From NCBI GenBank assembly GCA_014871385.1, contig CM026433.1, forward strand, positions 13,962,023 to 14,026,022: DNA of 64,000 nt. The letters run 5' to 3'. The DNA comes from Ceratodon purpureus (Eukaryota; Streptophyta; Bryopsida; Pseudoditrichales; Ditrichaceae). Positions 16,403 to 46,214 of the stretch are shown piece after piece. The position numbers and the translations under genes are program-made. Under the pieces are notes generated by a model. That model saw only the letters and a list, made by a program, of their open reading frames with translations. It searched no databases and was not told where the DNA came from. Numbering within the stretch: the first letter of the stretch is position 1; each line of letters opens with the position of its first letter.

Positions 16403-16618
16403 GGACGTAGCTTGTACGTGAGCGGAGAGCGTAGAGCGGAGAGCGGTGAGCACAGATTTGGAGAGCGGAGAGCACAGAGTGGGGGACAGAACCTAAAAAT
16501 AGCACTTTTTTTACTAAAAATAAAATATAAAATTAGAAGATTCGAATATTCTCAGTATATTTTTGGAAAAATACTAATTTTAGTAATTTTATTGACCCTA
16601 TAACCGTGGAATAATTAC
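16403..16618 (+). repeat. Left inverted terminal arm of the MULE-like element
   Basis: After the direct repeat CCCCCAGAAC (16,393-16,402), the arm contains GTACGTGAGCGGAGAGCG (from 16,414) with a further GAGAGCGG-rich stretch, and GACCCTATAACCGTGGAA at 16,594. Both blocks recur inverted at 46,079-46,204. The AT-rich DNA between the blocks has diverged in length. Confidence 0.8.
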
Positions 16619-16917
16619 AGTGTTTTCATTGAATTTGTAGTTCGTTTTCTCTTTTTTTTGATGATTAATTTTTAAACGTGCACCAATTACTATGCTCCAG
16701 CTCCTTCTAACTAGTTTAGGCATACATTAATTCCCTTTATCTCCTCAAATTTATATGCAAATTACCGCATAAAATGTATTGGTATTAAAGCTCTTACGAG
16801 GGATAAAGTAACATTTAATATCGTAACAATTTCTTAACATTGTTAGAAATCATCCGCCATGGTCTACATGGTTTATTTCTTTTATTCTTCATATTAACTT
16901 CCATTACTCTATCTATC

Positions 16918-17165
16918 TTTCCTTTCCTTTAATTCTCTTTCATTTTCTTTTCTCTTTCATTTTATTCGCTCTTTCATTTTTTTTTCTCTTTCATTTTATT
17001 TTCTCTTTCATTTTATTCTCTCTTTCATTTTCTTGTCTCCTTCATTTTCTTGTCTCCTTCATTTTATTTTCCTTTTCATTTTATTTTCTCATTCATTTTA
17101 TTTTGTCATTCATTTTATTTTCTCTTTCATTTTATTTTCTCTTTCATTTTCTTAGTCGCCTTCAT
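16918..17165 (+). repeat. Pyrimidine-rich tandem repeat
   Basis: About 13 units of roughly 17 bp of the type CTCTTTCATTTTATTTT. The surrounding 16,620-17,450 is AT-rich and otherwise featureless up to the ORF at 17,454. Confidence 0.85.
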
Positions 17166-17453
17166 ATTATTTTCAACCTTAATATTTATTTTTGCTTTTT
17201 TTCCTTTTTGCTTTTATAATTTTTTTTAATTTTTTTTATTATTTTTAAATTTTAAAAGCTAAATGACTTCTGCTCAACCCTCATCCTTTTCCATTCAGTT
17301 GAGGAAGATGCAACTTTCAAATGAATGAATAGCCGATTTTCAAGGGCGCCAAGCATCTCCTTCACGGATATTTAAGTTAGGATTATGGAATGTCTCTTCC
17401 TCTTTTCTGTTGGTGTTTTGTGAAGCTCTTTTCCGTACTGCGGGACAGCAGTT

Positions 17454-17906
17454 ATGGAAGACGTCAGAGATATTGTTGTTTCACTTGCTGACGATGTTTG
17501 TCCATTTCAACCATATGTTGAGGTGGAGGACGAAGAAGAGGTGATGGCCAGCAGCCAAGGGCGTCCTTTAACAACGGATGTTGACGTGCAACCGGATGTT
17601 AGAGCTGACCCTCCACGTTCAGAAAATTCGGATGATATCAGAGTGCTGGAGGAGGACGCAGATGTGCCTTTGCAACCTCATGCATACTCCAAGGTTGGAA
17701 AGATCCCAAGGGGAACCTATTCCAGGGAATCAGTGAATCGGAGGCGGGGAGGTGGGCCATTGCTGAAACGATCATACCAAGGACACGCTCCAAGTGTGGG
17801 AACGAAAGTGAATGCGAATGTAGTTTGTCCTGTAGTACAGTCAGAGGTTCGCAATCCTGCTGATAGTGTAGTGGGCAACCCTAAACGTGTTAGGTTCGAA
17901 GATTAG
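17454..17906 (+). CDS. Hypothetical 150-aa acidic/basic protein of the MULE-like element
   Basis: ATG-initiated single frame. The first half is acidic (VEVEDEEEVM); the second half is basic and Arg/Gly-rich, with RRRGGGPLLKR and a terminal NPKRVRFED that could act as a nuclear signal. No family is recognised. It lies between the left MULE arm and the CACTA insertion point, only 45 bp before the inserted element, so it belongs to the MULE and not to the CACTA. The insertion may have removed its natural 3' UTR. It could instead be the first exon of a longer gene cut by the CACTA. Confidence 0.4.
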   Translation: MEDVRDIVVSLADDVCPFQPYVEVEDEEEVMASSQGRPLTTDVDVQPDVRADPPRSENSDDIRVLEEDADVPLQPHAYSKVGKIPRGTYSRESVNRRRGGGPLLKRSYQGHAPSVGTKVNANVVCPVVQSEVRNPADSVVGNPKRVRFED

Positions 17907-17951
17907 GACATCTAATAACAAGTATATGTTTGCTGTAATAAAGGGTACATG

Positions 17952-19593
17952 CACTACAAGGATATGGGGGTCCAGATGACAGAGAAATGACACGAAAATG
18001 TCCAAGATGACGAAACGATGATTTCTGGTTGTTGTTCTTGTCAACTACCGAGAGTCTAGTGTATCCGTCAATTTTTTGTCAATTCTGTGAGCACTTTACA
18101 GCGTGGACTGTAGAAAGTTCTGGAATCTCTGGAGGATCTTCGAACATTGGTTAGCAGTGGACTATATCTCATGATTTCGTCCATTCCCCGTTTAGTTTCG
18201 TCATGTGCTTCACCCGAATTACCTGGATTTGAAGGCAAACTTGATATTTACGGTAAAAGTGTCGCTGTGAATTCTATCTCTTGCCAAAGCTGCGAGTCTT
18301 TCCTAAGGGGGACCCACATTCTGGAAGGGAGTTGCTGTTCTCTTTACTAGGTGCTGGGTTCTGCTAAAAACGAGCGTGTAGCTCTGTTTTACTCTTACAC
18401 CATATTCCATAGACTAGGACCTGTAGTTACCGAGAAGTTTACATGTGTCAGTTGTATGACAAATAGTATGCCAACATTTAGTAAAGCTCTGGCGATGTTG
18501 TGTGACCTACATATCTTCGTATAATATCAACATTGGTTCACTGTGTAATGTTGTACGTATATTTTCCTGCAAGTTTAGGGTGATTTACTGAGTACATTCA
18601 AGCTTGTACATTTGAATTCTTAAAATGCATGATCTCAGTGCAGTGAAATTATATTAACTTCGGACTTGTGAAGAAAGAATTCGAATTTATACAGGTCGTT
18701 CTACATGACAGGTGTACTAGAATGAAAATTTAGGAGTCTAGATAAACTAAAACATACATGCTCCACGAGCTCTCCCTAATTGACATCCAAAAGAAGAGTT
18801 TGTTGAAGTTAAGAGTAACACCTACAAGGATTTCATGAATAGCCTGTCTACTGTATTCAGACTTTGAAATGGACTCTTGCAATGACCACAAAATCGGGCA
18901 GATTGCAGAGTTCTACTTCGCAGCTTCTGACTACACCCTTCATGTTCTACGTTTAGGGTAGCAACGTTGACTCTAATTTTCTTGTACAGATATGGGAACT
19001 TCAGAATCTTTGACGTCGTGAACAGTATACACAGATACCACAGGTGGATACGGACGAAGTGTGTATCATGCTGCCCTATCTCCCGGAAAAACCCCTGTGG
19101 CAGTACCAAGAGCAATGCTTAGATACGAAGAATCGTTAAAAATCATATTGCATGTGTGTTACACATGTACGTCTATGAAGAAGATTTCTGTACTAACCTC
19201 TGTCGTACTTAATCAATCAATCAAAACTGAGTCTCAGATTGACGATACGTCATTGTTCAGAGGTACAGACAGAGTGAGAAAGATTCACCTTCATTTCTCA
19301 CAAACACTTCCTGAAATTGCTATCTGCAGTACAGTATCGCTGTCCGTTGTGCTGTTCGACATCTAAACTCCTTTTCCCTGTAACCGTCAGTGCCACATAT
19401 TGTAACACATTTTCATAAGACCAGCAGTATCCTCTCTGATCCCGAGAAGCATTCCTCTGTTAATTCATTACTGCAGTGCTCTGATTACCAACGACTTCGG
19501 ATTAGATCCTCACCTGGGACGCTTTCTACGAACCCGTTCTTGGTCATCACCTTCTAATTCAGCGGTCCTTCCAAATTTAGTTCAGGAAGTAAC
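17952..19593. other. CACTA left subterminal region
   Basis: No gene is seen; only short, unsupported open frames occur. This probably holds the subterminal repeats and the 3' region facing the left end of the element. Confidence 0.4.
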
Positions 19594-20022
19594 ATGGCAT
19601 TCTCGATGTCTTGCCCGCGTCCTTCTTTTGCAATTGACAAGGCAGCCATTCTGGAATGGTTGGCTCACGTCCATAGGCGCCGAGAGTCTCTTCGTCTCAG
19701 CTATCCAGATGTACCGCTGTTGGGAGAATTTCTCCAGTGCTCTAACGACTTTCGGTGGACTGACTCTACCTATAATGAGGTTATCTCTCTCGGTGATGCG
19801 TCAGGGGTCCACCTCCTTGATTATGTCGCACAACAGCCTACTCCAGCAGCTTGTCCGGGATGCTGCTGGTTTCACCCCATTGTCATTGATGGTGACTCCG
19901 ACGAAGAACTCTCAAGCGGTGACAGCAACTCTCCCCCCTCCGAGTTCTTCAGCGCGTCGTCTGCAGAAGTGTGTAGCGGTCACGATTCCTGCGAAGGCAA
20001 TGGAAGCGAAGCGGTTCAGTAG
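19594..20022 (+). CDS. Hypothetical 142-aa protein within the CACTA element
   Basis: ATG-initiated frame. The N-terminal half is helical-looking (AILEWLAHVHRRRESLRLSY). A short Cys/His cluster CPGCCWFHP follows, then an acidic Ser-rich tail (DGDSDEELSSGDS). No family recognised. It lies downstream of, and convergent with, the tnp2 gene, in the same orientation as the Transposase_24-type gene. The acidic Ser-rich style resembles the first known exon of that gene. It may be an accessory ORF or part of a longer spliced gene. The stretch 20,025-20,860 shows nothing further. Confidence 0.35.
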   Translation: MAFSMSCPRPSFAIDKAAILEWLAHVHRRRESLRLSYPDVPLLGEFLQCSNDFRWTDSTYNEVISLGDASGVHLLDYVAQQPTPAACPGCCWFHPIVIDGDSDEELSSGDSNSPPSEFFSASSAEVCSGHDSCEGNGSEAVQ

Positions 20023-20861
20023 GTATTATTCACTGAGGGCCAAACTCTGTATCCGAATGTTGACAGTCTCCACTCCTACCACATATGTTCTTAGAATGAT
20101 GTGCGTCATTTCAATGCATGCAAGGGACATTTATCATATGATGTCGACTTGGTTTTCCCGAAGCGGCTAGTTTAGTATCCGGTCTCTATGTAATACTAAT
20201 TATTATTGTACTTAGGCACTGCGAGTGCTGGAAATTCATTCCTACATATAGAAACTGTTTACTGGCCTCAGTGGTTATCAAGAATGACCATTTTGATGTT
20301 GACGCTCATTTTCTGAGCTAATACGTTTTCTGCGTACTATAAGTAAAGCATGTACAGTTATTCGACTTTTACCCCGTTATCGTATTCTATGTTGCGACTA
20401 TATGTAAGAGCCACATTGCTCACCATTTCATACCTCTTCTGAGGCACACGTATCTAGGTAACGGGTTGTATGTCGAAGTAGACACCCTGCACGAAGAAGA
20501 TCAGCCGTTAGGATGTCAACTAATTCGTGTATTTTAGACACAGTGGTAAAGCATAAATATGTCAGCATTTTCCATTCATTATATAGGTTGAAAGCAATAC
20601 CTAATTGATGTGTTCTGTGATTCAGAAGGAAACATTGTCTGTCGTCATTTAGGTACGTAGCTGTCCACATTAATCAGAGGAGCACATGAGAGATTGGCAT
20701 CATTTTCAAAAGAAAGAGTATCTCGATGTCAATGCACATATTCTCTGTCTAACACACAGCGACAGTCGTTGCATCGACATTGAGGCAGCCATAAGCAATA
20801 CCAATCGACACAAAAACTGTTGCGTAACAGCACTCACCTGTAATAAGCTCATGAACTGTTT

Positions 20862-23800
20862 TTACTCCCACTCTGAATTTTCCGACATAGATGTCGAAGT
20901 CATGTCTTCAGAAGAACCACTACCGCCTGCCGAGCTTGAAGAGTTCGCATCGTCGGTGGAATCTTCAATTGATGTCCTCTGCCTCACCCTCCTCGTCCGT
21001 ACAGGTGCTGTAGCTGTTTCTCTGCGTATGTTAGGACGGGATTCACAGTCGAACTCATCGCCGTGCACTCTTTCCCGTATATGTGTAGAATTATTCTCAC
21101 CGGCTGAATTTACATCTTCCTCCGCGACTCTTTCTCCTTGAATACCATCGGCCATCCCCCTGCCACGCCTTCCCCTCGGACCACCTCTACCTGTACCTCG
21201 GCCACCGTCTCTTCCTCTTCTGCCGACGGGCCCTGTCCTAGGGGGTTCCAAAATAATGTTCTCTCCTGTTCTGGCTTCAGGCACGTCCTGCTCTCCGACT
21301 TCCAGATCTGGCCTCAAGCCCTCGAAGTCATCATCCCGTCCCATTTGGAATAGCTCTGTCTCTCCTTCAGAATAGGTATCTGGTATAACACGCTTCCCCC
21401 GAACCTCTTTTCGCAGGACGACTTTCCACCCTGGAAAGTCCTTAGCGTTCGAGTAAAATACTTGCTCACAATGCATGGGGAACGCAAAACAATCTTTACA
21501 GACTCTTCTATATCTACGTTCATAGTTTGCTAAAGTAAAGCCCCACTTGTCTTTCTTTATCGTTGCGTTTTCACCCCTGTAGTTTGCTTTCACGAAATCA
21601 CAAACTAACACAACTAGGCAATGTCGTCTGTAGTTCAGCTCCAGAATTTCCTCAATATGACCTACATATTCCACATCAGCAGTAACGTGATTTCCATCGC
21701 GAACGCTGTTTCGACACACCTGCTTGTACGTAGCTGCAACTCCACTGTCGCTTGTTTTTAAATGATTCTCCGAACTGAGAACCCGATAGTGGTTCCCAAA
21801 AGCGTACATGCTTTTGTATGCGGTTGCCGTTGGCAGTGGACCCCTAGCCGTGTCCACTACCTTCGGATCCACATGCACATTTGCACGCTGCTCGTGCCTA
21901 ACTTCTTCCTGTACCCACTTCGCAAAAACTGGTAGTGCATTCAATTCTGCCGGAAACGCGAATCTACTTCTTCTACCTCTCCGCCGCTGGATTCTTCGAT
22001 ATTCCTCTCTTTCCTGCTCCCTCCTCAAAAATGCCTCATCATACCTCCTGAAATTAAGTTGATTACAGATTAGATCACTGTTCACATACATTTAAAGCGC
22101 TATTACTCAATCTGGTTTACTTACTGACTATACTGAAAATGCCTGGACGCATATTACAGCCACTATTCGACACAGATCGCAGGGTCTAACATATCAATAA
22201 CAGCATGCCTAACCCATTGTGAAGAGTCCGATGTCACTGTTCTAGAACTTTGTTCTCTGGTTTCGATTAACTGAACGAGCAATGCAAATTTAATAACTAG
22301 TGTCACCGAGTTAATTTAAATTTCGATCCCAATTATCCTCTATCAAAAGCATACTAACTGAAATTTGGGAGGAACATACGTACTTCCGGTAATCTTCCAT
22401 GTGCTCTGTGTTTTCTAAAACAAACCCATGCACGAGTTCCAGAAATTCAGGTGACATTACTCGATCTCTTCTGGTCCCTTCCAAAATCTCATCGTACATG
22501 GCCGGCTCCTCCTTATCATCCCACGCACGCTTCGTTGTTGGTGTATACTGTGAGAGGTATTCATTGAGGAATCCTATTGACTCTTCCCGCAAATATCCAT
22601 TCGCCATACTCCCTTCAGGTCGAGCCTTATTCTTAACAAAACCTTTCAAGCCCTTCATGTATCTTTCAAATGGATACATCCATCGATTATGGACTGGTCC
22701 ACATATGAAAAGTTCTTCAACCAGGTGTATGGGAAGATGCATCATGATCACAAAGATTGAAGGAGGGAGTTCTTTCTCCAGAGAGCAGATTGTCTCCGCA
22801 ACATCTTCAATCATTGACAGCTTCTCATTCCTATCTACAACTTTGGAGCAAATTTTTCGAAATAATCTACTCACCCGCATCACAACTCCAACAACAGCTG
22901 AATTACCGACAGTTCGCAAGCAAAGAGGAATGACTTGTTGTAATAGGACATGAAAGTCGTGAGTTTTGAGCCCCCTCAGTTTACCTTGTAAAATCCTCTG
23001 TCTCAAGGGACCTACGTAATTCGTGGGGAACTTTAAATCACTCAACGTCTGCAAGAACTCTAGTTGTTCAGACTTGGTCAAAACGTACGCAGCATCAGGC
23101 TTGAAATAAGTCTGGCCATCCGGGTTGCGACGTAGATGTAGGTGGTTACGGATACCCCGCACCCGCATGTCTTCCCTCGATCTGGCGTCGTCCGTCTCTC
23201 CAAACAGAGTCCGTAACAAATTTTCACAAATGTTTTTTTCGCAGTGCATAGCGTCCAGGGTATGCCTTATAGGGAGCACCTAAATCAGAAACCAAAAAAT
23301 AAACTTAGTTTGGATAATTCAAGTACAACATCTGTTATTACGCAGTACATAATAACCAAGAAAAAAGCGTAGTACCAAAAGCATTACGATTGAACAGCAC
23401 TATGAATTCGCAGCGACGGAATATTACCGACATGTAAAGAGCGAGGCGATTGCTACTACAGAAGCTCAGACAAACTGGGATAATTCGACCACGGCACAAC
23501 ACTCATAAATCCCACAATCAAAGCCATTATACAAGATGGTAGTCATGCAAACAGCCGCATGATATACTAATATAATATACCCCTCAACCAACCGCCATGC
23601 TTGGGAAGAGTGCGCTGAGATTCAGGATACATAAATTAGAATAACACTCTGATCACCTGATCGAAAAGTAGAATCTTATCACCTTATCGAAAAGTATATT
23701 CCGATCACATGATCGAAATGTTTCCCAGAAATTAAATTGACATAGAGCACCTATAAATCTTCACTACCAGATTACCGAGCAGCAATAGAGTCACAGATTT

Positions 23801-26075
23801 CTCTCACAACTCTCACTTAACGCCTGTTACTATCTCCACTATTCAAAGAATAATACTAATAATCGAGCTTCTAGATTAAAAACATGCCTGACCAGTGTGT
23901 TAGAGAGAAACTTTTTGTAAGTAATTCTAAAGTCACTGTACCATGTGGAAATTCAGTCAGAGAAGGTACGGCATACAGTTTAAGGTGACGCGAAAACAAC
24001 AACGTACATGTGTTATCGTTCCAACTTCTTCATACTGACTGGTAGAGGGTAACGTTCACACACAGTATATTCCGTGACTACCTATATGGACCTAGACAAT
24101 GATATACAGAGTGTGTCAAGCCACTTACATAACTGACTTCACTCATCGAATTCCATGAAGCACATAAAACAATACGGGAACAGTTACTGCCATTCTCAAG
24201 TTGCTGAGAGCAAATAGGCATAAACCACTAAATGTAGTATCTAAATGAGGAGTGGCAAAAGTAATTACCTCCCAGTAAGGAAGCTGGTACAGAATGCTAA
24301 CCCTCTTCACACCTGTTTTCTTCACTGGATCGTGATTTGAATTCGGACGTCCTCCGAGGTGCAGAAATGATTCTCTCCACGCTCCACGTTGCCTAACTGA
24401 TAATCCGGATTGTCGAACAGGGGCGGCATCGTGGTTGGGTTCCCCATTAAATGCTGCTCGTGCGTACCTCCACCTATGATCATGCCTCAGCCACCTTCTA
24501 TGTCCCATGAACACCGTCTTCCTTGCCTGTTTCGAGTATTCAGCAAATGTCCCTTCCCCACAAATAGGGCAACCCGCATAACCTTTGCCAGATTGACCCG
24601 AGATTAATGTGTAGGCTGGGTAATCATGTATTGTCCAAATTAGCATTCCCCGTAATTTGAAAGAACGAGACGGACCCTCCGGCTCAGACATGTCAACTGC
24701 TGAAACTCCTTTCCAAAGTTTTTTTAATTCATGAACCAAAGGCTGTAAATATACGTCTATAGTGTCTTCTGACGGGGAGGATGGCCCGGGTATTATCATA
24801 CTAAGAGTTACAAAAAATCTTTTGGTCAGTAAATAGGGTGGAAGGTTGTATAAAACCATCATAACTGGCCAAACCGAGTGCCTGGAAGACTGCAGACTAT
24901 GCGGATTCACACCGTCAAGGGCAAGACCCAGTCTAATGTTCCGCTCCTTACCACTGAATGCGGGAAAATGTTCCTCTATAAACTCCCACTGTTCACTGTC
25001 TACAACTGAACGCATCTTATTATCTCTCGAATGATGAGTACTATGCCACCTTAAATGCTTCGCTATCTCTGGACAGCGGAACATTCGACGCACCCTTTTT
25101 ATAATGGAAAAATACCTCAGTACTCTAACTGGAACAGTTGTTGAACCTGAAATAAATCGTGACTTAAAGCACACTGGACATTCAGTCAACTCTGACTTCT
25201 CCTTCCAGTATAAGGTTTTACCGCACTCACAACAATGTATTGTTTCATGGGAAAGACCTAGTTTACTTATCATGGTCTTCATTTCATATGAGGATTTCGG
25301 GCATTTGTTTCCCACGGGTAGTACGTCTTGCTTTAGGAAAGTCAGGAATTCGTCAAGGCAATGATGACTCACCGAAAACAATGTACACAACGACATCAAG
25401 ACAACACTGAATTGTAACCTGGTAGTTCTGGATCCTGGGTATAGTGGCTCCACGGATTCTCGTAGAAGGTGCTCCATCAGCGGTGTCTGGTCATCTTCAT
25501 CTTCTTCTGAAGACAAATCGTCGAAATCTATCACTTCGTCGTCTGCCTCGGTGAATTGCCTATGGATTTCGTCCACTCTGGAGAAAAAATTCTCCGCCAT
25601 GTGGTTCAGATCTGTGTCCACGTTTGGTGGATCTTCTCCGAAATGATCCATATCCTCGGCGTCTACAAACTCCTCAGCTTCTCCATCAGCGGACACGTCC
25701 GTAGGAGGTGGTAAGTCCGCCTCTTGCGCCACTCCTCTTCTGTGAAAAGGATACATTGGATTCCTCTGCATTTGGAAAAATTCAAGAAAGTAAATGTACC
25801 ATAAAGAGATATACTATGGCATGCGTATGGTGACTCCACCGGATATTCATGCGTTGTTAAATACGATTTAATACAGAAGTGAGAAGACTTACGAGAAGCG
25901 GGTCTATTAACGTACGGTCTCGGCCATACTTTCGATGATGGATTTCAACTCTGTGCACAGAATGTGTTTTGAAACCATGGCACCTTTCGCAGCCGCAAGG
26001 GTACCGTGTGATTCCTTGACGAGCAGCCAAAGCCCTCTCAAAGTGGTAGGCCTCCCCCAATTCGGTTTCCGACAT
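20862..26075 (-). CDS. CACTA (EnSpm) transposase, tnp2 type
   Basis: Four minus-strand exons join in phase with GT-AG borders: 26,075-25,893, 25,765-24,269, 23,279-22,384 and 22,047-20,862. Together they give an uninterrupted protein of about 1253 aa from ATG to TAA. Exon 1 is the transposon-associated Cys/His segment (ITRYPCGCERCHGFKTHS). Exon 2 is the tnp2/Transposase_21 domain (DGVNPHSLQSSRHSVWPVM, AYTLISGQSGKGYAGCPIC). Exon 3 begins VLPIRHTLDAMHCEKNICEN and continues as DUF4218 (LPIHLVEELFICGPVHNRWM, YPFERYMKGLKGFVKNKARP). Exon 4 contains the DUF4216-like region (WGFTLANYERRY) and ends in an Arg/Gly-rich then acidic Ser-rich tail. Known role: excises and inserts CACTA elements by binding the subterminal repeats and ends. 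It is divergent from the Transposase_24-type gene and looks functional. Confidence 0.93.
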
Positions 26076-27913
26076 GTTTTTTTTTCAAATTATCACCCTG
26101 TTGGATCTGTGGACACAGTTTGCATCAATGATACACCTTCACGTGTAATTATTGACAGAGTGGACTGAAAACGACCAAATATTCACATGTACAGATACAC
26201 CTACAACCTAATCTCCCGTGGAAGTAAAATTAACCTTTCAGGAAGCAAGGAAACTATGGAATTTATAGCTACTTCGCTATAACGCAGAATACTATAAGTC
26301 ACTTCTTCCATATCTCCACGCTTGAAAAATTCCCTCTATCGTACCACAACTACGTATAAACAGAGTATACATCAAAAAATAAGTTGTTCCGAGTGTGCGG
26401 GGATGGGATACTCACGCTGTGTATCCGGAGAAAGTCAGACTCAGTGAACTCCAGTAACCGTAGTAAACGCCTGCTTCAGCTGAGTATGCCTACTCAATCC
26501 ACCTGATCAAAAAATTTCAAAAGCACGAACCACCGAGCGCAGAGATTGTGAGCAATGCGTTGTGACTACTGAAATGAATTCTAGATGCGTGATGACTCAT
26601 ACATTTAAAGTATGTTTCTTGAATACTACAATAAAAGAATTCTCAGAAAACAGGGCGTACAGCTCTGTCAATTAATTCTAATCGACACTCAGATGCAATC
26701 AGATTGTAACGGGAAAGTACGTGAAGCTTATGTAAACCCTACGGCAATGTGGTCTACGTCTCTAAGTTTGAGGTGACCCAGGGAAACCCACAAATGTGAC
26801 AATGATAAATTTTAATTAAAACACGCAATGAGTGATTTGGGTGACCAGTAACTTCTCCCTGGTTAGGGTTTGAAAAAGCAAAGGAATACCTTGGATACCT
26901 AGATGTTCTCTTCAATTCCATGCTCGTCACCAGACGTCCAATTGAAGCACACGATGACACGGAGTTCAAGTCCCGCAGGCAAGAGCAGCTCCACTCATCC
27001 TCCTTCACACAGTAGAACAGTTGAGGACTTCGGAGGTGTGAGAAGTTTATCCGAACACACAGAACAGTGTAGTACTTGCGCAAACCATGAGGAGACGTTG
27101 AAAACTAGAGTATGAAGGTTCCGAAGTACGCGCTGAGGAGGTATGAAACTATTGTGGAAAACGACAAACTCCTGCGGCAGCATACTGGAGTGACGAAGTG
27201 GCTGTAATTCTCCAACCCTCACTCCTCTTTGTTTTATGTGCCTTGAATGTAGTAATTCACAGTGGGGTGGTCCATCAAGGGTAGTCGTATTGCAAAATTC
27301 TAAATAAAGGAGTGTTCAGGAAGAGGAGGAGCTGGCCACAAAATGTAACCGCCTTTGAAATTTACAGCAGAACTTTCCCGTCTATGTAGCAAGTTCTCCG
27401 GCCATTCTAGCGTAAACTGCGATAGTGGAGGAGGTGGGTATTTGGCATTAGGACGTGGCTGAAATGTCTTTTATGAACGTGGCGCATGAGAAACTCCAAT
27501 GGAATGTTCTGGGTGGTTTTTAAATTGGATGAAACATTCGAGACTTAAATGGCGAGGCACAGAACCCGATGAATATACATCCCCTTAATAACGCTGTTGT
27601 CTCCACTATTCCGCTCTGCATGCCTCCTGTCAATTTAGGTAAGTAAGTATCACGTCTACGGCGGCGAGGGTTTGCTGGGGTTTCGGTGTAGCTCGTCTTT
27701 GTCAACCTCCTTCGCCCACAATTCATTTTCTTCGTTAACTATGTGTCAAATGCTTAGCTCTAACAGATTGACGGTGCTCTAGGCGCAGATACGTAGAACA
27801 TCGCAATGTGTACCATGGGGGATTAGAGTGTCGTGGTGAAGTTATGTTATCATGAACTTTTAGCTATCAGCATTGTATTAGCCACCTTACAATTATCTAG
27901 TTTTACAACACAG
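26076..27913. promoter_or_regulatory. Intergenic region between the two divergent CACTA genes
   Basis: Head-to-head spacer of about 1.8 kb, expected to carry both promoters and the unseen first exon or exons of the rightward gene. Short open frames at about 26,900-27,115 are not convincing exons. No clear TATA box was assigned. Confidence 0.4.
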
Positions 27914-32490: not shown

Positions 32491-33369
32491 TAAGGGCCCA
32501 TTTCGAAGTAACTTAAATGTCCTATGCAGTCTGTAATGGATGCAGTTTTCAACTGTGAAAAACATTTAACAGAGGAGGTGCTATAAACCTTTCCATGCTG
32601 TGATTTTGAATGGGCAGGGGACATTCATTAGTTTTGTAGAACTCAGAGAGTCATTTACTGAACTGAACTAGGATGCGGCAGACATTAATCGGCTACTAAA
32701 TTAAAGACATATCAGGTGGATGGAACCGAATTTGGGCTACATATTTACAGCCCACAACCGTAATCCCGAAAACAGTGGAATATTATCAGCTTCGAATATT
32801 GTGATAGTGTGAACACAGCACACTAATAACGCTTTTTACAATATATATAATAGTTGGTAAATGCCGCATTATCCACGTATTGTCAATTTCATTGGTCATA
32901 TTCGGAACACGTCACTGAGATCAAAGAATTACTACTGGATGTGAAATTAGCCCGGAACATGAGATCAAAACACCTGTCAGAACCTCAGCGAGCGTTTATT
33001 AATTACCGGGAAACTGCGTAACTTAAAAATAACTCTAATTACTGTAAAGAAAGGAATGCGTTAAAAAAAATTCTTTTAAGGTGTAAGTTGTCTTTACGGG
33101 ATTAAAGAAGCTTCTGAGCACTTTACACTATCAACGTCGACGAGAAGTAAACTAAGACGGTAAACCAGAATGCTGACTTGGCTGCGAAAATCCAGAGTGG
33201 CAACCATCCAAGGGGACGAGGAATCCGACGTGTATTTCTGTCCGAGATGACAGTCTAATCTACAGAAACCTGTCAACTATGTGACCGAATCAAGGTACCC
33301 TAATTGACACCACAATTGACAAATTTCTATCAACATTCTGTCATTTAGGACACAGTATCCCTTGTAGTG
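32491..33369. other. CACTA right subterminal region
   Basis: AT-rich, without a supported gene. It ends in the right terminal inverted repeat CCTTGTAGTG. Confidence 0.5.
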
Positions 33370-33581
33370 ATGTCAGAGGATACGAGGTATATAGTGCACT
33401 TCTTCAAGATAGAATGTATTGAAATAGAATGCAATCAATGTGAACGACAAAGCCTTTAATATAATGAAAAAGTCAATACAGCTTCTGAATAGCTGACTTA
33501 GTACATGGTATATTACTAAAATCATTCACTACGTGACAAATGGCCATTGTGGAAATGGCAGTTCTAAAGTAGGAGGGCTAC

Positions 33582-36500: not shown

Positions 36501-37260
36501 TTGTTGTGATGGTCTTGGTCCACAAGTGTCCGTCGTATCGTTTATCCATTCCCTGCATAGACTTGGCGGCGAGCTTAGAGCATCCTGCAGCAGCTGGGGG
36601 CAACTCAAATAGAACCGGACCATCAAACTTCGCAGGTAAGTACTCTACTCTCTCGTGTCTAATAGTGGAATAGTCTATCTTCTTCAAAATGTTTTTCGAC
36701 CCACGCGTCTTAGCAATCTCTTTAAGGAGCGGAACAATGCTAACTGTGACCTGGGACAATGGAGGTGAGACATTAGAAGGAGGAGCATCTGCATGGACCT
36801 TAGGCACCAACTTGACGGGACTGACTTCGTCATCAGAAGAGAGAGATATGACGGTCGGAGGAGGTTTCTCTACATCTGAAGTCTCGGTACCAGGCTCGAC
36901 TTTGACTTTGACATCACGAGGTAAGGGAGTCTGAATTGTGCAAGTAGAAGAGCGACAGGGGGTGAGGATCTCAGTGGATGCAGCCATAAGAGAATCAGTA
37001 AGACCATAGACTCTATAGGATCCAGGGAGGAGTCTCCACTGCAACATGTTGTTCTCATCTCTCACTGAAGGTTGCCCGAGGGTGTGGGTAACCTCGGCAG
37101 TAACGTCATCAAAGATCTCCTCCTCTATACTGATGGAATCCTCACGAAAATGGAATCTGAGACTGAGGCGAAGAGAGGACACCGTAGCTAGACCATCGTC
37201 ATCTACGCGAAACCTAAGAGGGATGCCCATGCCTTGGGCGTACAGACAGACCATCCCCAT
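33582..37260 (-). CDS. MULE-type transposase with WRKY/GCM1-like and SWIM zinc fingers
   Basis: Two minus-strand exons, 37,260-35,182 and 35,075-33,582, join in phase to 1190 aa without stops; the first ATG is at 37,260. The N-terminal 250 residues contain a Ser/Thr/Pro/acidic linker. At about residues 255-380, a Cys/His region (GWLRCTNVECDF, then CKVCKEPPSC, ending HIGTHHHPVKVGDYR) resembles the WRKY-GCM1/FLYWCH zinc fingers found ahead of MULE catalytic domains. The DDE region follows (VYDATYCRV, GFMADNAQANWNAVRIL, RSCLFHWTQNM). Exon 2 starts with NLAETVHNKWLQ, typical of MULEs. It ends with a SWIM zinc finger, CTCPAFKKTM...YCKHLYYILLKVC, near the C-terminus. Family role: cut-and-paste transposase acting on long terminal inverted repeats. 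It is divergent from the methyltransferase-like gene across a 0.8-kb spacer. A decayed relative of its C-terminus lies at 48,237-49,073. Confidence 0.85.
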
Positions 37261-38057
37261 ATTCGCAGGCAACACAAATATACTAGAGGAAGAAGGAAGA
37301 AGAGTGAGTGTAGTAGCAAAGCAGTATCGCGAGAGCGAAGTGAGAGGAATGATGCATCGCTGTTGATCATTTTATTCAAATTGGAATGTCCATGTGGACG
37401 ACTAGGTAAAGATTCATTCTGCTACGTAACGAATGTATGATTTTAGAGAGACGGCGCTAACTAATTATGATGTTGCTTTTTGCAGGCCCATAGATATGTA
37501 GTAAGATTTTTAGAATATTGCGTCGCGTATTTGAATGGTGGAGCAGATTCTATTTTTTATGGGGTGTGATTGGAATAAAAAGAGCCGTCTATTCCTTCTG
37601 CATTTAAAACAATAAATATATAGAATTTGAATTAATCAAATTCATGCATTAGTTATATATTTATAAGACTAATGCAAGCATATGATTTATTCAAATTCTA
37701 TATTTTATTCAGTGTTAGAGTTCCTCAATTTTCATAATAAATTACTGGACAGACAGACTGTGAGTGAGATTAGAGTGAGCCGTCACTTGCATCCATATTT
37801 GATACAAGTATTTCTGTGCTTAATTCAAATCTTTTAATATTATGTGGGCTTTGTTTATTCTCTTCCAATATAGATAGATCTCATCAGCTTTAATTCAAAT
37901 TTCAATTTATTTATAGTTTTCATTAATTCAAGTAGGTTTAGAATATGGGAAGTATTTAGGGCTGAGTCAGGGGGGTTGCAGGTTTGGGATACATAAGTTA
38001 GAGGGAAGTTAGGAGGAGAGCTATATTGTGAGGAGACTTCTCTCGTTAGTTAGACAT
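37261..38057. promoter_or_regulatory. Divergent promoter region of the MULE-like element
   Basis: The 0.8-kb AT-rich spacer lies between the two ATGs (37,260 minus, 38,058 plus). It includes inverted AATTTGAATTAATCAAATTC-type sequences near 37,625-37,705. Both MULE genes are presumably driven from here; no single TATA box is assigned. Confidence 0.45.
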
Positions 38058-41000
38058 ATGAAGGACAGTGGAGGGTCAGCTCCCTCCACTTATGTCACTC
38101 CTAGGCGTAGAAGAAAACCAGGTGGTACAGATTTTACTAACAGGAGATCGAGGAAGAGGAGAGAATTAAGTAGGAAGTCAAAGTCGAAAGGCAACCTCTT
38201 GAGTGCACCTCTGAAGGTTCGAGGAGCTGGGCTGCCTGTGGCAATTAAATTTTGTAGCATCCGTAAACTCATTCTAGAGTCCATAGTGGAGGCGGAAGAT
38301 GAGGTTTTAGAGGATACCGCAGTTGAGCATGAGGAGCATGAAGTAATAAGTAGCGGAGAGAAACATCTGGAGATGACGGAAGAGCTAGGATTGAATTGTA
38401 GTCCGACTTTGGAGACACCGCAACCTTCTTTCGGATTCAAGGAGTGTACGACAGGAGGGACGGATTCTCAATCGGGCGACCATGGTAATATAGATGTGGT
38501 AAGTTTCAGAATCCATCAATTAAAAGATATTAAATGTAAATTATAGGTGGTTTGAAGTAATGTCTTTGCTGCGGGTTCGTTGTTTTACTGTTTAGAGTAG
38601 TGAAGCTGCATGAATCTGAACGGTTGTTCAAAATAAAAGTGGAGTAGTAAGTTCTGTCGTAGTCCTAAACATTTGCGCAGATTGGCGACTCGTTTAGGAT
38701 TGAGCAAGACGTTGAAGAGGAGAAGACGCCAGAAGTGGGTACGGGCGAGGAGTCAGATCATGAGACGTTGAGAAAAGTCGCTAGGAGAGCAAGACGCCAA
38801 ATTATGGAGGCGGGCGAAGGTGGAGAACTACTTGCTGCTACACGAGCGGGGCGAGGGCACCCTGGAAGTCCTACTGAAACTAGTGGGGAGGATAGTGATT
38901 CGCTCGACATTGCGGTAGGCCCAGGAGAAGCGGACATTGATGAGGGGTCGGCCCGAGGGAGAGGTCGAAGGGGTGAGGTGAGGGGTCGAGGGAGGGGTAA
39001 GGGTCGAGGTGGGAGGGGGAAAGGCCCTTCGCAAGCCCCATTGCTTCACACACCCGCGGCCAGAGAGGAGATCGAGAAGGAGATGGAGGGGCGAGGAGAG
39101 GAGCGTGAAGAGCTCGAGATGGCGAGTGAGGGAGGTGGCACGGACCGCGGCCCTGCTACTGATCAGGTGAGCATACTTCAAGTGGAATTGGGGTTGTTTG
39201 GAACTTGGGAGGATAGATGTAATGGAATTGTGGGTGTCGATGCACTTGGAGAGAGGAGTCAGTTCTTGAGAGAAGAGGTCGCGGGGGGGATTGTGAGGGA
39301 GGAGGGGGAGAATGTGGGGGGGGACTTTTTTGTTGAGGTGCTGCTGGAGCCTGCAGCCATGGCCGCGGCCCTCGCAGCTTATGTGGGAGCAGTTGAGGCT
39401 GCAACTGTGGAAGCCGCCCCGGGGGAGCAGCCCCTCGCATGGGCGCATTCGGATCCGAAACTCCTTCACGAGGAGGGGGAGAATGTGGGGGGGGACTTTT
39501 TTGTTGAGGTGCTGCAGGAGCCTGCAGCCATGGCCGCGGCCCTCGCAGCTTATGTGGGAGCAGTTGAGGCTGCAACTGTGGAAGCCGCCCCGGGGGAGCA
39601 GCCCCTCGCATGGGCGCATTCGGATCCGAAACCCCCCCACGAGGAGGGGGAGAATGTGGGGGGGGACTTTTTTGTTGAGGTTCAGATGGAACCTGCAGCC
39701 ATGGCCGCGGCCCTCGAAGCTTATGTGGGAGCAGTTGAGGCTCCAACTGTGGAAGCCGCCCCGGGGGAGCAGCCCCTCGCATGGGCGCATTCGGATCCGA
39801 AACCCCCCCACGAGGAGGGGGAGAATGTGGGGGGGGACTTTTTTGTTGAGGTTCAGATGGAGCCTGCAGCCATGGCCGCGGCCCTCGAAGCTTATGTGGG
39901 AGCAGTTGAGGCTCCAACTGTGGAAGCCGCCCCGGGGGAGCAGCCCCTCGCATGGGCGCATTCGGATCCGAAACCTCCCCACGAGGAGGGGGAGAATGTG
40001 GGGGGGGACTTTTTTGTTGAGGTTCAGATGGAGCCTGCAGCCATGGCCGCGGCCCTCGAAGCTTATGTGGGAGCAGTTGAGGCTCCAACTGTGGAAGCCG
40101 CCCCGGGGGAGCAGCCCCTCGCATGGGCGCATTCGGATCCGAAACCCCCCCACGAGGAGGGGGAGAATGTGGGGGGGGACTTTTTTGTTGAGGTTCAGAT
40201 GGAGCCTGCAGCCATGGCCGCGGCCCTCGAAGCTTATGTGGGAGCAGTTGAGGCTCCAACTGTGGAAGCCGCCCCGGGGGAGCAGCCCCTCGCATGGGCG
40301 CATTCGGATCCGAAACCCCCCCACGAGGAGGGGGAGAATGTGGGGGGGGACTTTTTTGTTGAGGTTCAGATGGAGCCTGCAGCCATGGCCGCGGCCCTCG
40401 AAGCTTATGTGGGAGCAGTTGAGGCTCCAACTGTGGAAGCCGCCCCGGGGGAGCAGCCCCTCGCATGGGCGCATTCGGATCCGAAACCCCCCCACGAGGA
40501 GGGGGAGAATGTGGGGGGGGACTTTTTTGTTGAGGTTCAGATGGAGCCTGCAGCCATGGCCGCGGCCCTCGAAGCTTATGTGGGAGCAGTTGAGGCTCCA
40601 ACTGTGGAAGCCGCCCCGGGGGAGCAGCCCCTCGCATGGGCGCATTCGGATCCGAAACCCCCCCACGAGGAGGGGGAGAATGTGGGGGGGGACTTTTTTG
40701 TTGAGGTTCAGATGGAGCCTGCAGCCATGGCCGTGGCCCTCGAAGCTTATGTGGGAGCAGTTGAGGCTCCAACTGTGGAAGCCGCCCCGGGGGAAAATGA
40801 TTGGGAAAATGATTTCTGTAATCTGCAACTCCTTGTTTTATTCTAGTTCTTTTATGCTTTGTATATAAATCTCATAAAATGCATACCGTTTGTGTTGTAG
40901 GAGCTCACTGAGCAATTCACCGCAAGTGACTTTGATGGCCCAACTCCAGCAGAAACTGAGGTAACCTGTTTTCATTTGTTTTCGGATTTCAACGTAGCCT

Positions 41001-44000
41001 GATTTATCGAACTTCCATAGTAATTTCTAATTTTCTGCTGAATGCTTAGTTGAGAATATGACAATGTTTTTGTTCTTTTTCTCTAGGTATTCTCAGATGC
41101 ACCCTTGTCCATCAGTTCGCCGATCTCAGTGATCAATGTCTCCGACCTCTCGGATTCATTTGATCAGCCCCACTTATGTAGGTGTGATCTGAGCAACCCT
41201 GTAGGTTTAGGTAGTGGACCTCTCGAGGTCCACTCTCCTCAGTACATGCCTACGTCTCCTGTCTATGAGCCTACATCCCCGGGCTACATGCCTACCTCTC
41301 CAAGACTTGGGACCCCGCCTATGTCTCCACCTTCTCCATCCTCGCCTATTAGAGTCAGGAGGCCAGCTCATGTTGTCTTCGCCCTGCCAGCGATATTGCC
41401 ATGCCTTGTCCAGCAAACCAGGCGATTTTGGAAGAGGCGCCGTCACTGGAACTGTAGACAGGCTAGGGAGTATTATAGTCGTGCACGACGCACATAGTGG
41501 CCTAAGCTCTACTTATTTCTGCTGCAGCTGATTGTGTTCTTAAAAGAGATGTACCAGTCTGAGAATTAATTCTTTTATTCTACTTTATTGTTTTTGATTT
41601 GCTTAAGTTCATTGACTTCGAATCAACTCTAAGTACGTATGACCTTGGACAGGTAACTCAAACACAGGATCAGTTGCCAGCGCCATCTTGTCCAACTGAT
41701 TTGACAAATGCAGTGGACAGTGAATTGGAGCACAGGAAACATTTCAAATTGGACTCTACAACCGTCATCAACGATCTCCGAATACTCCCAAAGACGAAGT
41801 CCCGTATGCTTGTACCCCTCTGCAGGATGCAGTCAATGGCAAAAGTGCGACCGGTAGGCGAAATGGGAGTTCAACATTTGGAGCGCGAGTTTGTCAATGG
41901 ATATAGAGATGGGGACCGGGTCATGTACATTTCCATGTACAACCACGAAGAGAAGACAGCCGAAGTCACTCCGGAGATCAAGGCTGACTGGAGCCCTTGT
42001 TGGCAAAAAGTCAATGATGCTTTCGAAGATGAGCTCTTGGCCGACCCGGACTGGAAGGAGTTCTCTGGGAAGATGTTCTATGTCTGGGAAGGAAACCATC
42101 GCCTTGCCGCTTGGTACAGACATATCAACAACCATCACTATGAAGATCCAGCTTGGCACATCTCCGTGCATTGCATTGTTCTTGACCCCCGCGGTCATGT
42201 GGGAAACCTTCTTCATGTCATGCACGACATCAACTGGTAATAATTTTTTCCCTACTTTTTGTCCCCACTTCTTGAAAGCAGGTTGTACTTCAGGGCTTTA
42301 ACTAACTACCATATCTTCGAGCAGGTCTACAGAAAATGATCATGTGAAGAGTAATCTTCCTGCAAAACTCTTTCGTATTCGCTCTTTTGGTGTGATGAAA
42401 TTGGAGGAATTCAAGGATCTGCTCTCACCAGCAGAGTACCAATTATGTTTGAATCACAAACCATCGATTCCAGGATGGTTTACTTTGCCAACCAAAATCT
42501 TCATCGCATTTCTTTATCGTGTAAGCACTACTTCCCCACCCCCCCTTACGATTCTAAATGTCATCAATTGCCGTGCTCTGTACACTCAGAAGTTGATAAT
42601 GTTTATTTTCCAGAGAGAAATCGTGGCTGCTTCAGACGAAGCAGCCAGGACCTACAAGGAGAAGACACCCATTACAGAGCAAACTGCCGCAGGGGTTTGG
42701 GATGCTATGTCTGCTGCTTCGTCCGACATGATCAACTACATTAAGAAGAAGGACTTCACCAAGTACCTGACCATTGCCAATCCCAAAAACGGTGATGACT
42801 TCCTTGCGGAGGTGAGTTTCGACCCTTGACATTTCTACTTTACTTTCCTATAACTATTTTCAAATCTAATCTTCCCTATCATGTATTGTTCTCTTCCCAG
42901 ATCAATCGGCATTACAGTGATTTTTCCAAGCCCGAGATGACAGTGGATAAGCTTCAGAGGATTGTTCCCGCAAATGTTGATGCCAGATTTAAAGCCCGTT
43001 GGCTGAAGTGGTGGAACTCTTCACCAAGTGCACGACAATCTTACAGATTTCTGCCCCAAGACTTTAAGGAGACCGAGTTGGAGCCCTGGTTGAACAAGGC
43101 CACATTCTGGGCTGCGGTAGAACTCTTCAAACTTCTTAACAATCACTAAAACCTCTTCTTTTTTGTTTAATGTCCATGTTCACCTCAACGACATTACCTT
43201 TCTGTGGCAGTTGGAGGATGCTGTTACTCGGGAGTTTGATGACATCTGTAAGACCGAGAACCTTGTCATCAAGTGGAAGTCCTTCCCGGGACTGTTGCGG
43301 CCAGACGCATATGTGGAGAGCTGGCGTATTCTCCTTTGGGAAAAGGCCTTCCCCGCATTTATTAGTACCCGCGCAGAAAAGCCTTTTGATAAGAAGTCAG
43401 ACTTTTCCACTTTTCCGGGAGCAACAGATGTTGTCAAGCGTGTGACATACCGGTAGGACATTTATGAACTTCGACTTTGTATTGTTTTACCTTTTCGCAT
43501 TTCTTTATTGTCAATAATATGTTTCTGATACATGGCAGTTGAATTTTATTAGGTACTTCAAGAGAGAGCTGGTTCCAAAAGGTGCAATTGACCCTGAGAA
43601 GTTCCCTTCATACTTCGCGTCCTGGATTCAGAGAGGCTCTGATCAGTGTATTTATACTCCTCTGCAGCTGAAGAGGTACAGCTCGTCCCACCTAGCCGCT
43701 GGGTGTTGGTACCTCGATTGCATTCGAGGATTCGTTATTGAGTCTGAAGCGGAGCTCAAAGCTGAGCTTGACGCGGGATCAATAGCCATCGACGATTCTG
43801 GAGACGGTTCTGATGAGGCCGAAGGCCTCCAGGATCAATCATCTGCACCTCCACGGAAGAAAGGGCGGGGGCGGCGACTGCGAAAGCTGGGTGCTACGTC
43901 CCAGGGCTCTCAGGAGACTGGTGCAGAGTCCTCCGCCCCGGAGAAGGGCGCTGCCGTTCCATCTCCTGTGATTGTCGTTCCAAATCCGTCCCCTACTCCT

Positions 44001-45661
44001 GCGCCTTCATCGGTCAGTGCATCCGCTATCACCAGAGGTCTTCTGGAGCAAAGGAAGGCCAGACTTCTCCCGGCAAGCACCTCCTCCGCAGGAACTCCCC
44101 ATTCCACTGGTGTTTCTATCATCAACTCATCCGTGACCCCGTTACTCGTTCGTAACATGGAGCTCAAAGACAAGGGTGGCCATCCGGATTGGGTGAAAAC
44201 TCTAGAGTTCGTGCGCAAGGTATGATTCTCTTCTTCAATAATTAATATTACGTACACTTCAATTAATTTCATATAGTCTAACCCTATAGCGTTGTTTCTC
44301 CAGTTTGGACGTGGGCGGCATAACCAAGTTCCTGAGCGGTGCGAGGTTGAGAATCATCTTGGAGTCGACTAGATCATTGTAGACATCCCTGAGAATCTTC
44401 CTGTCCCTCTCATTTCCGACCCCCCTACAGTGATTCCTCCTTGGAACTCCCGTGAAAAGGATTATGTGTACGACATTTTCTATTTCGCAAGTCTTTACTT
44501 GCAGAATGATGGCGCTTTGTGCATCATCTACAACAATGATCAAGCGTTGGCTACGGAGATTCTCGAAGAAGCTAGCGCCACTAAGTTCGTCCTTTACAAA
44601 GACTGGTGGGGCTTCAATGAGCTCGGCCTCACTTCTCCTACGAACCCCGGAAACCTGGTAATTTCATCCTTTCCTTTCCTTCAGTTTACTTAGTACTATC
44701 CCTTCCGTTTATTCATTCTGACATAATTTGGTTGATTGCAGACTAATCGGTTCTGGATCCGTGTCTTCGTTCGTGGTGGCGTGCCGCCATCTAAGTTCTC
44801 CTTTCAAACGAAGAAATCCGATGTCATACATGGCGACCTCAACATTACCGAGAGTGATGCGATTTTCAACTTTATCGACGTTGACTCTCAGCAAATGAAT
44901 GGGGATGTTCCATGGAGAGGGCCAAGGGAAAAATCTCCTGGGATGATGCAGAACATAATTGGAGAGCTCTCGAAGCCCGGCGACATAGTCCTGGACTGGA
45001 AGGCAGGAACAGGTAACCGTTCTTACATGTTTCTACAAAATTATTTCTCTGATTCCTTTCTCAGTTCTCACGTCTTCACCTTGCTTTGAGTTGCAGGGGC
45101 CTCTGTCAAGGCTTGCCAGGCTATTGGTCGTCATATTATAGCTTTTGAGGATGACAAAGCCATATTCAACGCCCTTCTCAAACCGTATATGGCAGCAAAA
45201 TCTCCCATGGGCCCCCCTAAGCATCCTAGACCGGCAGCAGCAGAGGAAGCACCAGCAAAGAAACAAAGACCCACTAAGTATTGTAAGTCTTACTCTAGAA
45301 TTTGTAGGTTTCGTGCAATACATCTAGTATTATTTCTGTACGCAAATTTCCCTATTTGATCTAACCACTTCTGGCTTTCTATTGCAGAGTAGTTGTGACA
45401 ACACCGCCAAGTGGGCATAGAGCCGTGTTCACTCCATCGTGGCGTCTTCATTCCAGCCCGGTTCAGCCTTTTATTCTTCCGGACTATGCAGAGGGCTTAG
45501 CACAAGCGCTTCAATGTGGTGCACTTAGATATGTTCCAAGTCGGCCCACTAATTTTGATCCCAGGGCCCTTCTATTTGTCGATGAAGAGGCTGTAGAAGG
45601 AGAGTCTGCGTCATCGGGTTCTGAGAGTGGGAGTAGCGACTGTAGCATCTTCGAAGTTTGA
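38058..45661 (+). CDS. ParB-like plus beta-class DNA N4/N6-methyltransferase-like protein of the MULE-like element
   Basis: Exons with GT-AG borders: 38,058-38,498, 38,681-39,166 (or on through the 171-bp repeats to about 40,800), 40,901-40,960, 41,087 to about 41,400, about 41,608-42,236, 42,325-42,520, 42,614-42,811, 42,901-43,116, 43,211-43,452, 43,553-44,219, 44,304-44,657, 44,742-45,012, 45,097-45,282 and 45,390-45,661. Phases agree except at the unresolved join at 41.4-41.6 kb. The N-terminus is Arg/Lys-rich. Exon 4 has three heptads YMPTSPV, YEPTSPG, YMPTSPR. Exon 5 is ParB/sulfiredoxin-like (MFYVWEGNHRLAAWYRH). The C-terminal exons match N4/N6 DNA methylases in beta order: IIVDIPEN and PPW, then GALCIIY, and last a motif-I-like DIVLDWKAGTGASVKA with GRHIIAFEDD. 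An in-frame TAG (44,370-44,372) precedes the catalytic motif, so this copy may be broken. Methyltransferase activity is inferred, not shown. Confidence 0.7.
39302..40795 (+). repeat. Nine tandem 171-bp repeats
   Basis: Nine copies at an exact 171-bp spacing; AATG starts at 39,311, 39,482, 39,653 and so on to 40,679. Copies 3-9 are almost identical, copies 1-2 differ slightly, and the last is truncated. The unit is 57 codons and stays open on several frames of both strands. In the gene's frame it reads acidic/Ala-rich (ENVGGDFFVEV, EPAAMAAALEAYVGAVEA). A GTGAGC donor at 39,167 would make the array intronic; without it, the array is coding. Both fit the downstream phase. Confidence 0.95.
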
Positions 45662-46078
45662 AAGAGGCCTCGCTCTATCATTGTTTCCATTTAATTTGAT
45701 GTGATTTCAGTGGAGTTGATTATATACTGCATCGTCTACTCTATTGCAAAGCACTAAAATATTCATGATTCTCATTTCCTGTTTATACTCGTGTATACCT
45801 TGCCTTCTTTATGTTCTGTGAAAGTTGTTTCTTTCCTTGTGCATTTACATAATCCTATGAAAGAATTATTTGTTTGATCTAGAACTCAACGCCTGATCAT
45901 TGTATCTTGTCCAAACCCATGATAAATCTAAAGGAATGTATGCATGACGTCATCATGACATCAGCCCTAATTTGTATCTTTGTGAACAAACGTAATAAAT
46001 TCTTACCAGAGATAACCCTAAATTCCACGGTAATATACTCTTTTTCTAAAAAAAGAGTAAAAATTAAGCCTTCATTTA
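45662..46078. other. 3' flank of the methyltransferase-like gene inside the MULE right arm
   Basis: AT-rich sequence, likely 3' UTR and subterminal DNA. TTCCACGGTAATATACTC near 46,023 repeats the CCGTGGAA motif of the terminal arm. No gene is seen. Confidence 0.5.
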
Positions 46079-46204
46079 GTAATTTTCCACGGTTATAGGG
46101 TCTACTTTGGTTTTGAAAATTTTCCTAATGGTCAATTCTGTGCTCTCCATTCTGCGCTCACCGCTCTCCGCTCTACGCTCTCCGCTCACGTACGAACTTT
46201 CCCC
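46079..46204 (-). repeat. Right inverted terminal arm of the MULE-like element
   Basis: Carries the inverse of the left arm: the GACCCTATAACCGTGG block (46,079-46,102) and the GTACGTGAGCGGAGAGCG block (ending 46,193). It is followed by CCCCCAGAAC at 46,205-46,214, the probable target duplication. Confidence 0.8.
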
Positions 46205-46214
46205 CCCCCAGAAC

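Follow-up and report, generated by a model that had tools for sequence, protein, structure and literature searches.

The 64,000-nucleotide stretch of the Ceratodon purpureus genome analysed here (contig CM026433.1, positions 13,962,023 to 14,026,022; G000:C13:13962023-14026022 in our numbering; hereafter the window) contains, at 16403-46204, a complete copy of a Mutator-like element (MULE)-like DNA transposon with inverted ends and a divergent gene pair, and the family to which this copy belongs is multi-copy and recently active. Beside its transposase, and co-mobile with it, the element bears a gene whose protein product is under purifying selection and contains a beta-class amino-methyltransferase-type domain in which the catalytic tetrapeptide DPPY has given way to a fixed degenerate motif, D-I/V-P-E. 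The reading that we favour, with a confidence a little short of even, is that this degenerate methylase-type accessory protein is non-catalytic and may act either against silencing, as VANC does in VANDAL elements, or as a specificity partner in transposition. The features that carry the argument, where TSD denotes a target-site duplication, are as follows.

16393-16402, no strand: left TSD copy CCCCCAGAAC, identical to 46205-46214
16403-16618, plus strand: left terminal inverted repeat, with 7-bp GAGCGGA-type repeats and a second block, GACCCTATAACCGTGGAA
33582-35075, minus strand: transposase exon 2, with a SWIM-like CxCx(n)CxH at 33720-33791
35182-37371, minus strand: transposase exon 1, the first Met codon beginning at 37260
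41608-42236, plus strand: methylase-like gene, exon 1 (‘ParB-like’), with EGNHRLAAW at 42088-42114
42325-42520, 42614-42811, 42901-43116, 43211-43452 and 43553-44219, plus strand: exons 2-6, middle region
44304-44657, 44742-45012 and 45097-45282, plus strand: exons 7-9, N6_N4_Mtase-like domain
44373-44393, plus strand: degenerate motif IV, IIVDIPE, in exon 7
from 44988, plus strand: motif I, VLDWKAGTG, spanning the exon 8/9 junction
45390-45661, plus strand: exon 10, C-terminal tail and stop codon
46078-46204, minus strand: right terminal inverted repeat
46205-46214, no strand: right TSD copy, 10 bp

The element's coordinates are correct to the base, because the exact TSD CCCCCAGAAC abuts both of its ends. 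Between the two ends, 50 of 53 bases align in an outer block and 24 of 25 in an inner second block (blastn), and a repeat search of the window returned inverted ends of 48 nt at 94%. Target-site duplications in the Mutator-like superfamily span 8-11 bp, and both the 10-bp TSD and the terminal inverted repeats are features of that superfamily. We searched the whole genome (362.5 Mb in 151 contigs, of which C6 makes up 110.5 Mb) for further copies; numbers of genome matches given here are lower bounds, except for the counts of short pieces, which are complete. A 35-base piece of the inverted end has 972 matches with at most two mismatches, and the reversed-pattern control has none. Ten paired copies were checked at their ends: seven have both ends, each flanked by a perfect 10-bp TSD that differs from all the others, and the remaining three have, within the stretch inspected, a left end only, a right end only and neither end, respectively. 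Where ends were read, the left end begins GG or GA. The initial annotation of this DNA had proposed inverted arms with a probable 10-bp duplication and a divergent gene pair inside them; both proposals are borne out, the transposase lying on the minus strand and a 10-exon methylase-like gene on the plus strand, and the seven two-ended copies together with the 972 arm matches rule out coincidence as the source of arms and duplication.

The transposase is encoded by two exons joined across a GT-AG intron and is 1,191 amino acids (aa) long counted from the first Met. Exon 1 contains YDATY (35662-35676), MADNAQA (35512-35532) and CLFHW (35425-35439), exon 2 contains CNLAETVHNKW (35007-35039), and the order that we read by eye, D...D...CxxH...E followed by CxCx(n)CxH, is what we take to be the MULE order, SWIM-like motif included. 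Neither Pfam (E<=10) nor NCBIfam (E<=1) gave a match to a MULE, a SWIM or any other transposase model, and a comparison by hhalign with eight PF10551-positive open reading frames (ORFs) of the same genome was weak (E 0.12), covering only 19 columns around the second Asp. Since the protein matches no Pfam or NCBIfam profile, the MULE-like label rests on the TSD, the ends and the motif order, and the SWIM-type MULE transposase of the initial annotation is kept here as a putative one. The exon-1 frame (745 aa) is free of stops in 50 of the 60 near-full-length matches listed. Searches of IMG/VR with a few peptide patterns each returned no close relatives of the transposase, the methylase or the ParB-like exon.

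The methylase-like gene has ten exons (41608-45661, plus strand) and stops 0.5 kb short of the right end; with exon 9 placed at 45097-45282, all nine introns are GT-AG. Exons 7-9 match the Pfam model N6_N4_Mtase (PF01555) at 5.2e-8 (33.5 bits against a cut-off of 26.7), over the motif X/I part of the profile (positions 160-217 of 221), and the methylase-like part also matches PHROG 3008 (7.5e-11) and the DpnA structure (1.7e-5). When compared by hhalign with eight phage ParB-methylase fusions in their methylase part, the domain matches over 63 columns that include motifs X and I (E 2e-6, probability 89.5), and an end-to-end low-stringency alignment places DIPE on DPPY and DWKAGTG on DPFGGSG; in both comparisons the element is represented by a sister locus, L017, and not by the window copy. 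The position of motif IV is set by this low-stringency alignment and by the context VDLIIxD, and the resulting order IV, X, I is that of the beta class, as the initial annotation had claimed for the C-terminal domain. Of the profile searches proposed at that time, the one for a methylase thus found its model above cut-off, and ParB profiles went unmatched (see below).

The degenerate motif is fixed. Among the best 30 of 341 matches, window copy included, DIPE stands in place of DPPY in all 30 loci; the motif is ADIPE in a diverged class (L089) and FDVPE in a far relative (L091). Every one of these sequences thus lacks the aromatic residue, as well as one proline, of the catalytic [DNS]PP[YFW] pattern. 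The motif I pattern VLDxxAGxG is kept in 29 of the 30, the splice sites and length of exons 7-10 in all 30, and 25 have no premature stop across these exons (the five with a stop include the window copy). Within the class the ratio of nonsynonymous to synonymous substitution rates (dN/dS) is 0.20 (278 pairs with dS>0.03), and against one diverged copy it is 0.16 for exon 1, 0.26 for exon 7 and 0.22 for exon 8. Because DIPE is fixed, splicing is conserved and dN/dS is about 0.2, what is being maintained is a protein lacking the canonical catalytic motif, and these marks of selection suggest that it is a tool of the transposon rather than baggage. MULEs do tend to acquire fragments of host genes (PMC6446971), yet that this gene is a captured host or bacterial fragment, functionless for the element, is very improbable indeed given its conserved splicing, its open frames, its dN/dS, its consistent pairing with the transposase, the 171 matches of a class-A methylase piece and the at least 150 class-B matches, of which 141 are open (both classes are described below).

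The initial annotation had suggested that a methylase might mark element DNA, an idea weakened by the fixed DIPE. An active methyltransferase that marks the element through a non-canonical D-x-P-E motif would fit the retention of motif I, the S-adenosylmethionine (SAM) site, in 29 of the 30 loci and the purifying selection on the domain, but it would have to work without the aromatic residue and the proline missing from all 30 loci, L089 and L091, and the aromatic residue is described as needed for base stacking in METTL3 and as missing in METTL14 (PMC5023411); we regard such activity as the least probable of the functional alternatives, though by a slight measure only.

Other methylase-like sequences occur in the genome. 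L091 (G000:C1:5957954-5959154) represents a separate family, whose intact copies have ORFs of about 550-590 aa, with a D-V-P-E methylase-like domain, the motif having been read in L091 only; this family has at least 150 matches at 41-100% identity, falling into several identity groups. We considered it as the accessory gene of transposases that lack a partner and rejected it: of 37 places on C1-C3 (a 38th listed place on C3 was left out), one lies divergently within 25 kb of a transposase, at 23.8 kb, and because only this one adjoins a MULE-like transposase the family probably belongs to another mobile element. L092 (G000:C12:14529990-14531240), whose motif X/I part has D-L-N-A-S-T-G, is apparently a third methylase-like lineage. 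A 320-aa frame at G000:C8:9595672-9596436 covers almost the whole N6_N4_Mtase model (35.5 bits) with one TGA and could be either a canonical relative or a contaminant. Besides C8:9595672, C1:5958254 and C5:15306119 there are 29 further exon-sized PF01555 matches, L092 among them.

The first exon was described in the initial annotation as a ParB-like segment, and of that description only a GxxR-type motif is left. EGNHRLAAW is present in the window and EGNHRL is kept in a second, 68%-identical exon, so that both ParB-like exons read carry the GxxR P-motif of the ParB/sulfiredoxin fold, and by eye the order of strands and helix is plausible for ParB. No ParB match to exon 1 was found in Pfam, PHROGs, NCBIfam or PDB sequences, nor by tblastn to phages. 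When exon 1 was shortened by its first 30 residues and a 36-residue insertion, hhalign returned E 0.13 and a score of 13.8, a value that falls among those of 50 shuffled sequences (mean 11.8, maximum 20.75). In six leave-one-out controls, by contrast, phage ParB domains recovered one another with a probability of at least 98%. Because the query profile was thin, built from two sequences, the outcome for exon 1 is a lack of support and not a disproof.

Fusions of ParB with an N6/N4 methylase have been described in phages, where they are frequent, and among eukaryotes sulfiredoxin is reported as the commonest protein with the ParB fold (PMC12704722). The moss protein resembles such fusions, for example L101 (425 aa), in having a homologous methylase domain with an N-terminal GxxR-type motif ahead of it, but differs from them in that ParB homology is undetectable, the catalytic DPPY is lost, the gene is divided into 10 exons and a long middle region intervenes. 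Descent from the phage fusions, with the ParB part serving as a nucleoside triphosphate-dependent DNA clamp, would account for the shared order of a GxxR-bearing exon followed by a methylase, and L101 and its relatives are examples of such fusions; we nevertheless think it improbable, as hhalign gave E 0.47 for the whole exon and 0.13 for the shortened one against controls at 98% or more, and the profile, structure-sequence and phage searches above were silent.

Copies elsewhere in the genome indicate that the methylase-like gene and the transposase travel together. Short pieces of the methylase (35 bases, at most three mismatches), the transposase (35 bases, at most two) and the ParB-like exon (32 bases, at most two) have 171, 598 and 269 genome matches, respectively, and none with the patterns reversed. 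Pairing was assessed on C1-C3 up to C3:23958503, where the list of transposase matches ends, and thus on 19 of 85 exact methylase matches, 27 of the 28 ParB-exon matches listed on C1-C3 and 30 of the 150 class-B matches listed; the controls placed genes uniformly at random and ignored the clustering of transposons. A divergent transposase lies within 25 kb of 15 of the 19 class-A methylase matches (random mean 0.29, maximum 3 in 1000), 18 of the 27 ParB-exon matches (mean 0.42, maximum 4 in 1000) and 24 of the 30 class-B matches (mean 0.55, maximum 4 in 500), which answers in the affirmative the question, raised in the initial annotation, of whether the pair is mobile as a unit.

The converse comparison is more mixed. 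Among 100 exact transposase matches at least 45 have a methylase or ParB-exon partner among the matches listed (the list of 83 class-A partner places draws both on the 341 matches and on the short-piece matches), and the refuting condition set in the initial annotation, that other copies of the arms lack the gene, is answered only in part, by the many transposase copies that carry a diverged class instead. A right-hand inverted end lies within 26 kb of 62 of the 100 transposases (inverted-end matches on C1-C3, two beyond C3:23958503 left out), at a median distance of 12.0 kb for the 13 with a class-A or ParB-pattern match and 12.4 kb for the 49 without; we therefore rejected deletion as the explanation for those 49, the accessory half being equally long. 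Class B, with at least 150 scored matches at 86-100% identity to L089 and 141 of them open over the exon, explains part of the transposases without a class-A or ParB-pattern match.

The two halves of the element have diverged to very different degrees. Measured against the window with gaps scored as mismatches, the transposase (33637-37371) is 95-99% identical in 28 of 29 other loci, the remaining one, L058, lacking part of exon 2, and identity is 90-99% across 37372-37710, whereas at 38011-38500, in a second accessory gene described below, it is 71-90% in 14 of the 29 loci and 56% in L040, where the methylase is only 2 kb from the transposase. That diverged accessory classes adjoin a nearly uniform transposase suggests exchange of accessory halves between copies. 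It also bears on the possibility that the methylase-like protein links the transposase to the ends of the element at integration and has no part in silencing, as a helper of the mudrB kind. The mudrB gene of maize, a second ORF whose function is unknown, is apparently required for integration (PMC6446971), and, as in MuDR, the moss transposase and an accessory gene share one autonomous element, the gene lying divergently beside the transposase in two-ended copies and at most of the methylase genes tested; the moss accessory protein is apparently of a different kind from mudrB, and the moss element has further genes. We consider such a helper unlikely, if the strongest of the alternatives, for two diverged classes beside a nearly uniform transposase fit diversification driven by target or host better than they fit a close co-evolution with the transposase.

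The other parts of the element, on which the comparison with known transposons partly depends, are these.

16933-17174, no strand: non-coding tandem repeat near the left end, 17 bp x 14.2
17454-17906, plus strand: small ORF of 150 aa, no Pfam match at E<=0.01
38069-41497, plus strand: second accessory gene, between transposase and methylase-like gene, read by eye with uncertain exon boundaries

Absent from the initial annotation, the second accessory gene contains a coding tandem repeat of 171 bp x 8.7 (39299-40794, 98% matches; within the stretch 38669-40846) that yields 57-aa protein repeats. The tail of this gene, an ORF end at 41087-41494, has heptads resembling the RNA polymerase II C-terminal repeat, and RNA_pol_Rpb1_R scores 20.0 bits on it, just below the cut-off of 20.3. 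That annotation also did not mention a CACTA element, 15.4 kb long and nested at 17952-33369 (minus strand), with CACTACAAGG ends, flanked by the TSD ATG at 17949-17951 and 33370-33372, with Pfam matches to Transposase_21 (4e-66), DUF4218 and DUF4216 (the last just below its cut-off); it is younger than the MULE-like element and no part of it, and without it the MULE-like element is 14,381 bp long. Immediately to the left of the element lies a transposase ORF of piggyBac type (14211-15206, minus strand; DDE_Tnp_1_7, 3.9e-45). Further out in the window are a hAT-type transposase ORF (2713-6042; DUF659 7.6e-33, Dimer_Tnp_hAT 1.4e-6), flanked by GC-rich minisatellites at 2142-2546 and 6340-6622, and a protein-kinase-like ORF of 535 aa (302-1909; Pkinase 1.5e-10) between GC-rich minisatellites.

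The closest parallel for the whole arrangement is found in the VANDAL elements of Arabidopsis, in which the VANA transposase is conserved and VANC is variable, with tandem peptide motifs, its targets being tandem arrays (PMC5735166); VANC binds short motifs in tandem repeats and triggers the loss of silent marks (PMC5735166, PMC10398659). The moss element, too, is MULE-like, with accessory genes beside a conserved transposase and an accessory part that diverges, and it has short repeats in its ends, the 17-bp array at its left and a coding tandem repeat. It differs in that no DUF1985 was found and that its accessory domain is of methyltransferase type, an anti-silencing role being suggested here by analogy. 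For a methyltransferase fold that is kept while its catalytic tetrapeptide degenerates, METTL14 is a precedent, though as a member of the MT-A70 family it is a partner in RNA methylation and not transposon-borne. It reads EPPL where METTL3 has DPPW, and it is described as catalytically inactive and as serving the writer complex in a non-catalytic capacity (PMC5023411). It is on the VANDAL/VANC parallel and the METTL14 precedent that we favour a non-catalytic, DNA-binding anti-silencing factor. On this reading the accessory protein would not methylate DNA and would keep its fold, and perhaps SAM, for recognition; the DNA recognised would be that of the element's own termini and tandem repeats; and the bound protein would most likely shield its own family from silencing, as VANC does for VANDAL, or alternatively serve as a specificity partner for transposition.

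Several observations weigh against this interpretation. The gene model was read by eye and is provisional at its 5′ end; the window copy is interrupted by an in-frame stop in exon 7 (44370-44372) that the initial annotation had missed, intact copies existing elsewhere in the genome. Four of the 19 class-A and six of the 30 class-B methylase genes have no listed transposase nearby, and 55 of the 100 transposases have no partner among the matches listed. Inactivity as a methylase is a deduction from the loss of DPPY, the anti-silencing role is an analogy and no more, neither DUF1985 nor any other VANC domain appeared in Pfam searches of the window and element proteins, and the hhalign comparison of exon 1 with phage ParB domains (E 0.47, no signal) lends nothing to ParB-like targeting.

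DNA transposons that bear a gene for DNA or chromatin modification are known, among them fungal elements with TET/JBP, and HarbingerS and oomycete MuDR elements with SET (PMC12730594), and the moss element is of this kind; those genes encode dioxygenases and histone methyltransferases, unlike the apparently inactive N6/N4-type domain found here in a plant. In the literature outside subscription journals and Repbase, we found no MULE with a ParB or N6/N4-methylase-type protein named in titles or the opening parts of abstracts. Non-transposase genes of plant MULEs are known that affect host silencing (VANC) or integration (mudrB), and no DNA-methyltransferase-type one is described in the papers examined. 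A Pfam ‘DNA methylase’ match in a plant gene set may accordingly be transposon cargo without the catalytic motif, which calls for caution. More broadly, and more doubtfully than our reading of the element itself, it is possible that in at least two families of plant transposons a bacterial-type N6/N4 DNA methyltransferase has been converted into a non-catalytic DNA reader (D-I/V-P-E) that protects or targets the family encoding it, as an exchangeable cassette in hundreds of MULE-like copies and in a second family, the one with long ORFs and at least 150 matches, whose mobility is presumed. The diverged alleles beside a nearly identical transposase offer a natural set for finding what the protein recognises, and a conserved pseudo-methyltransferase in a recently active family would, if this reading is true, be a new way for selfish DNA to read epigenetic control or to counter it.

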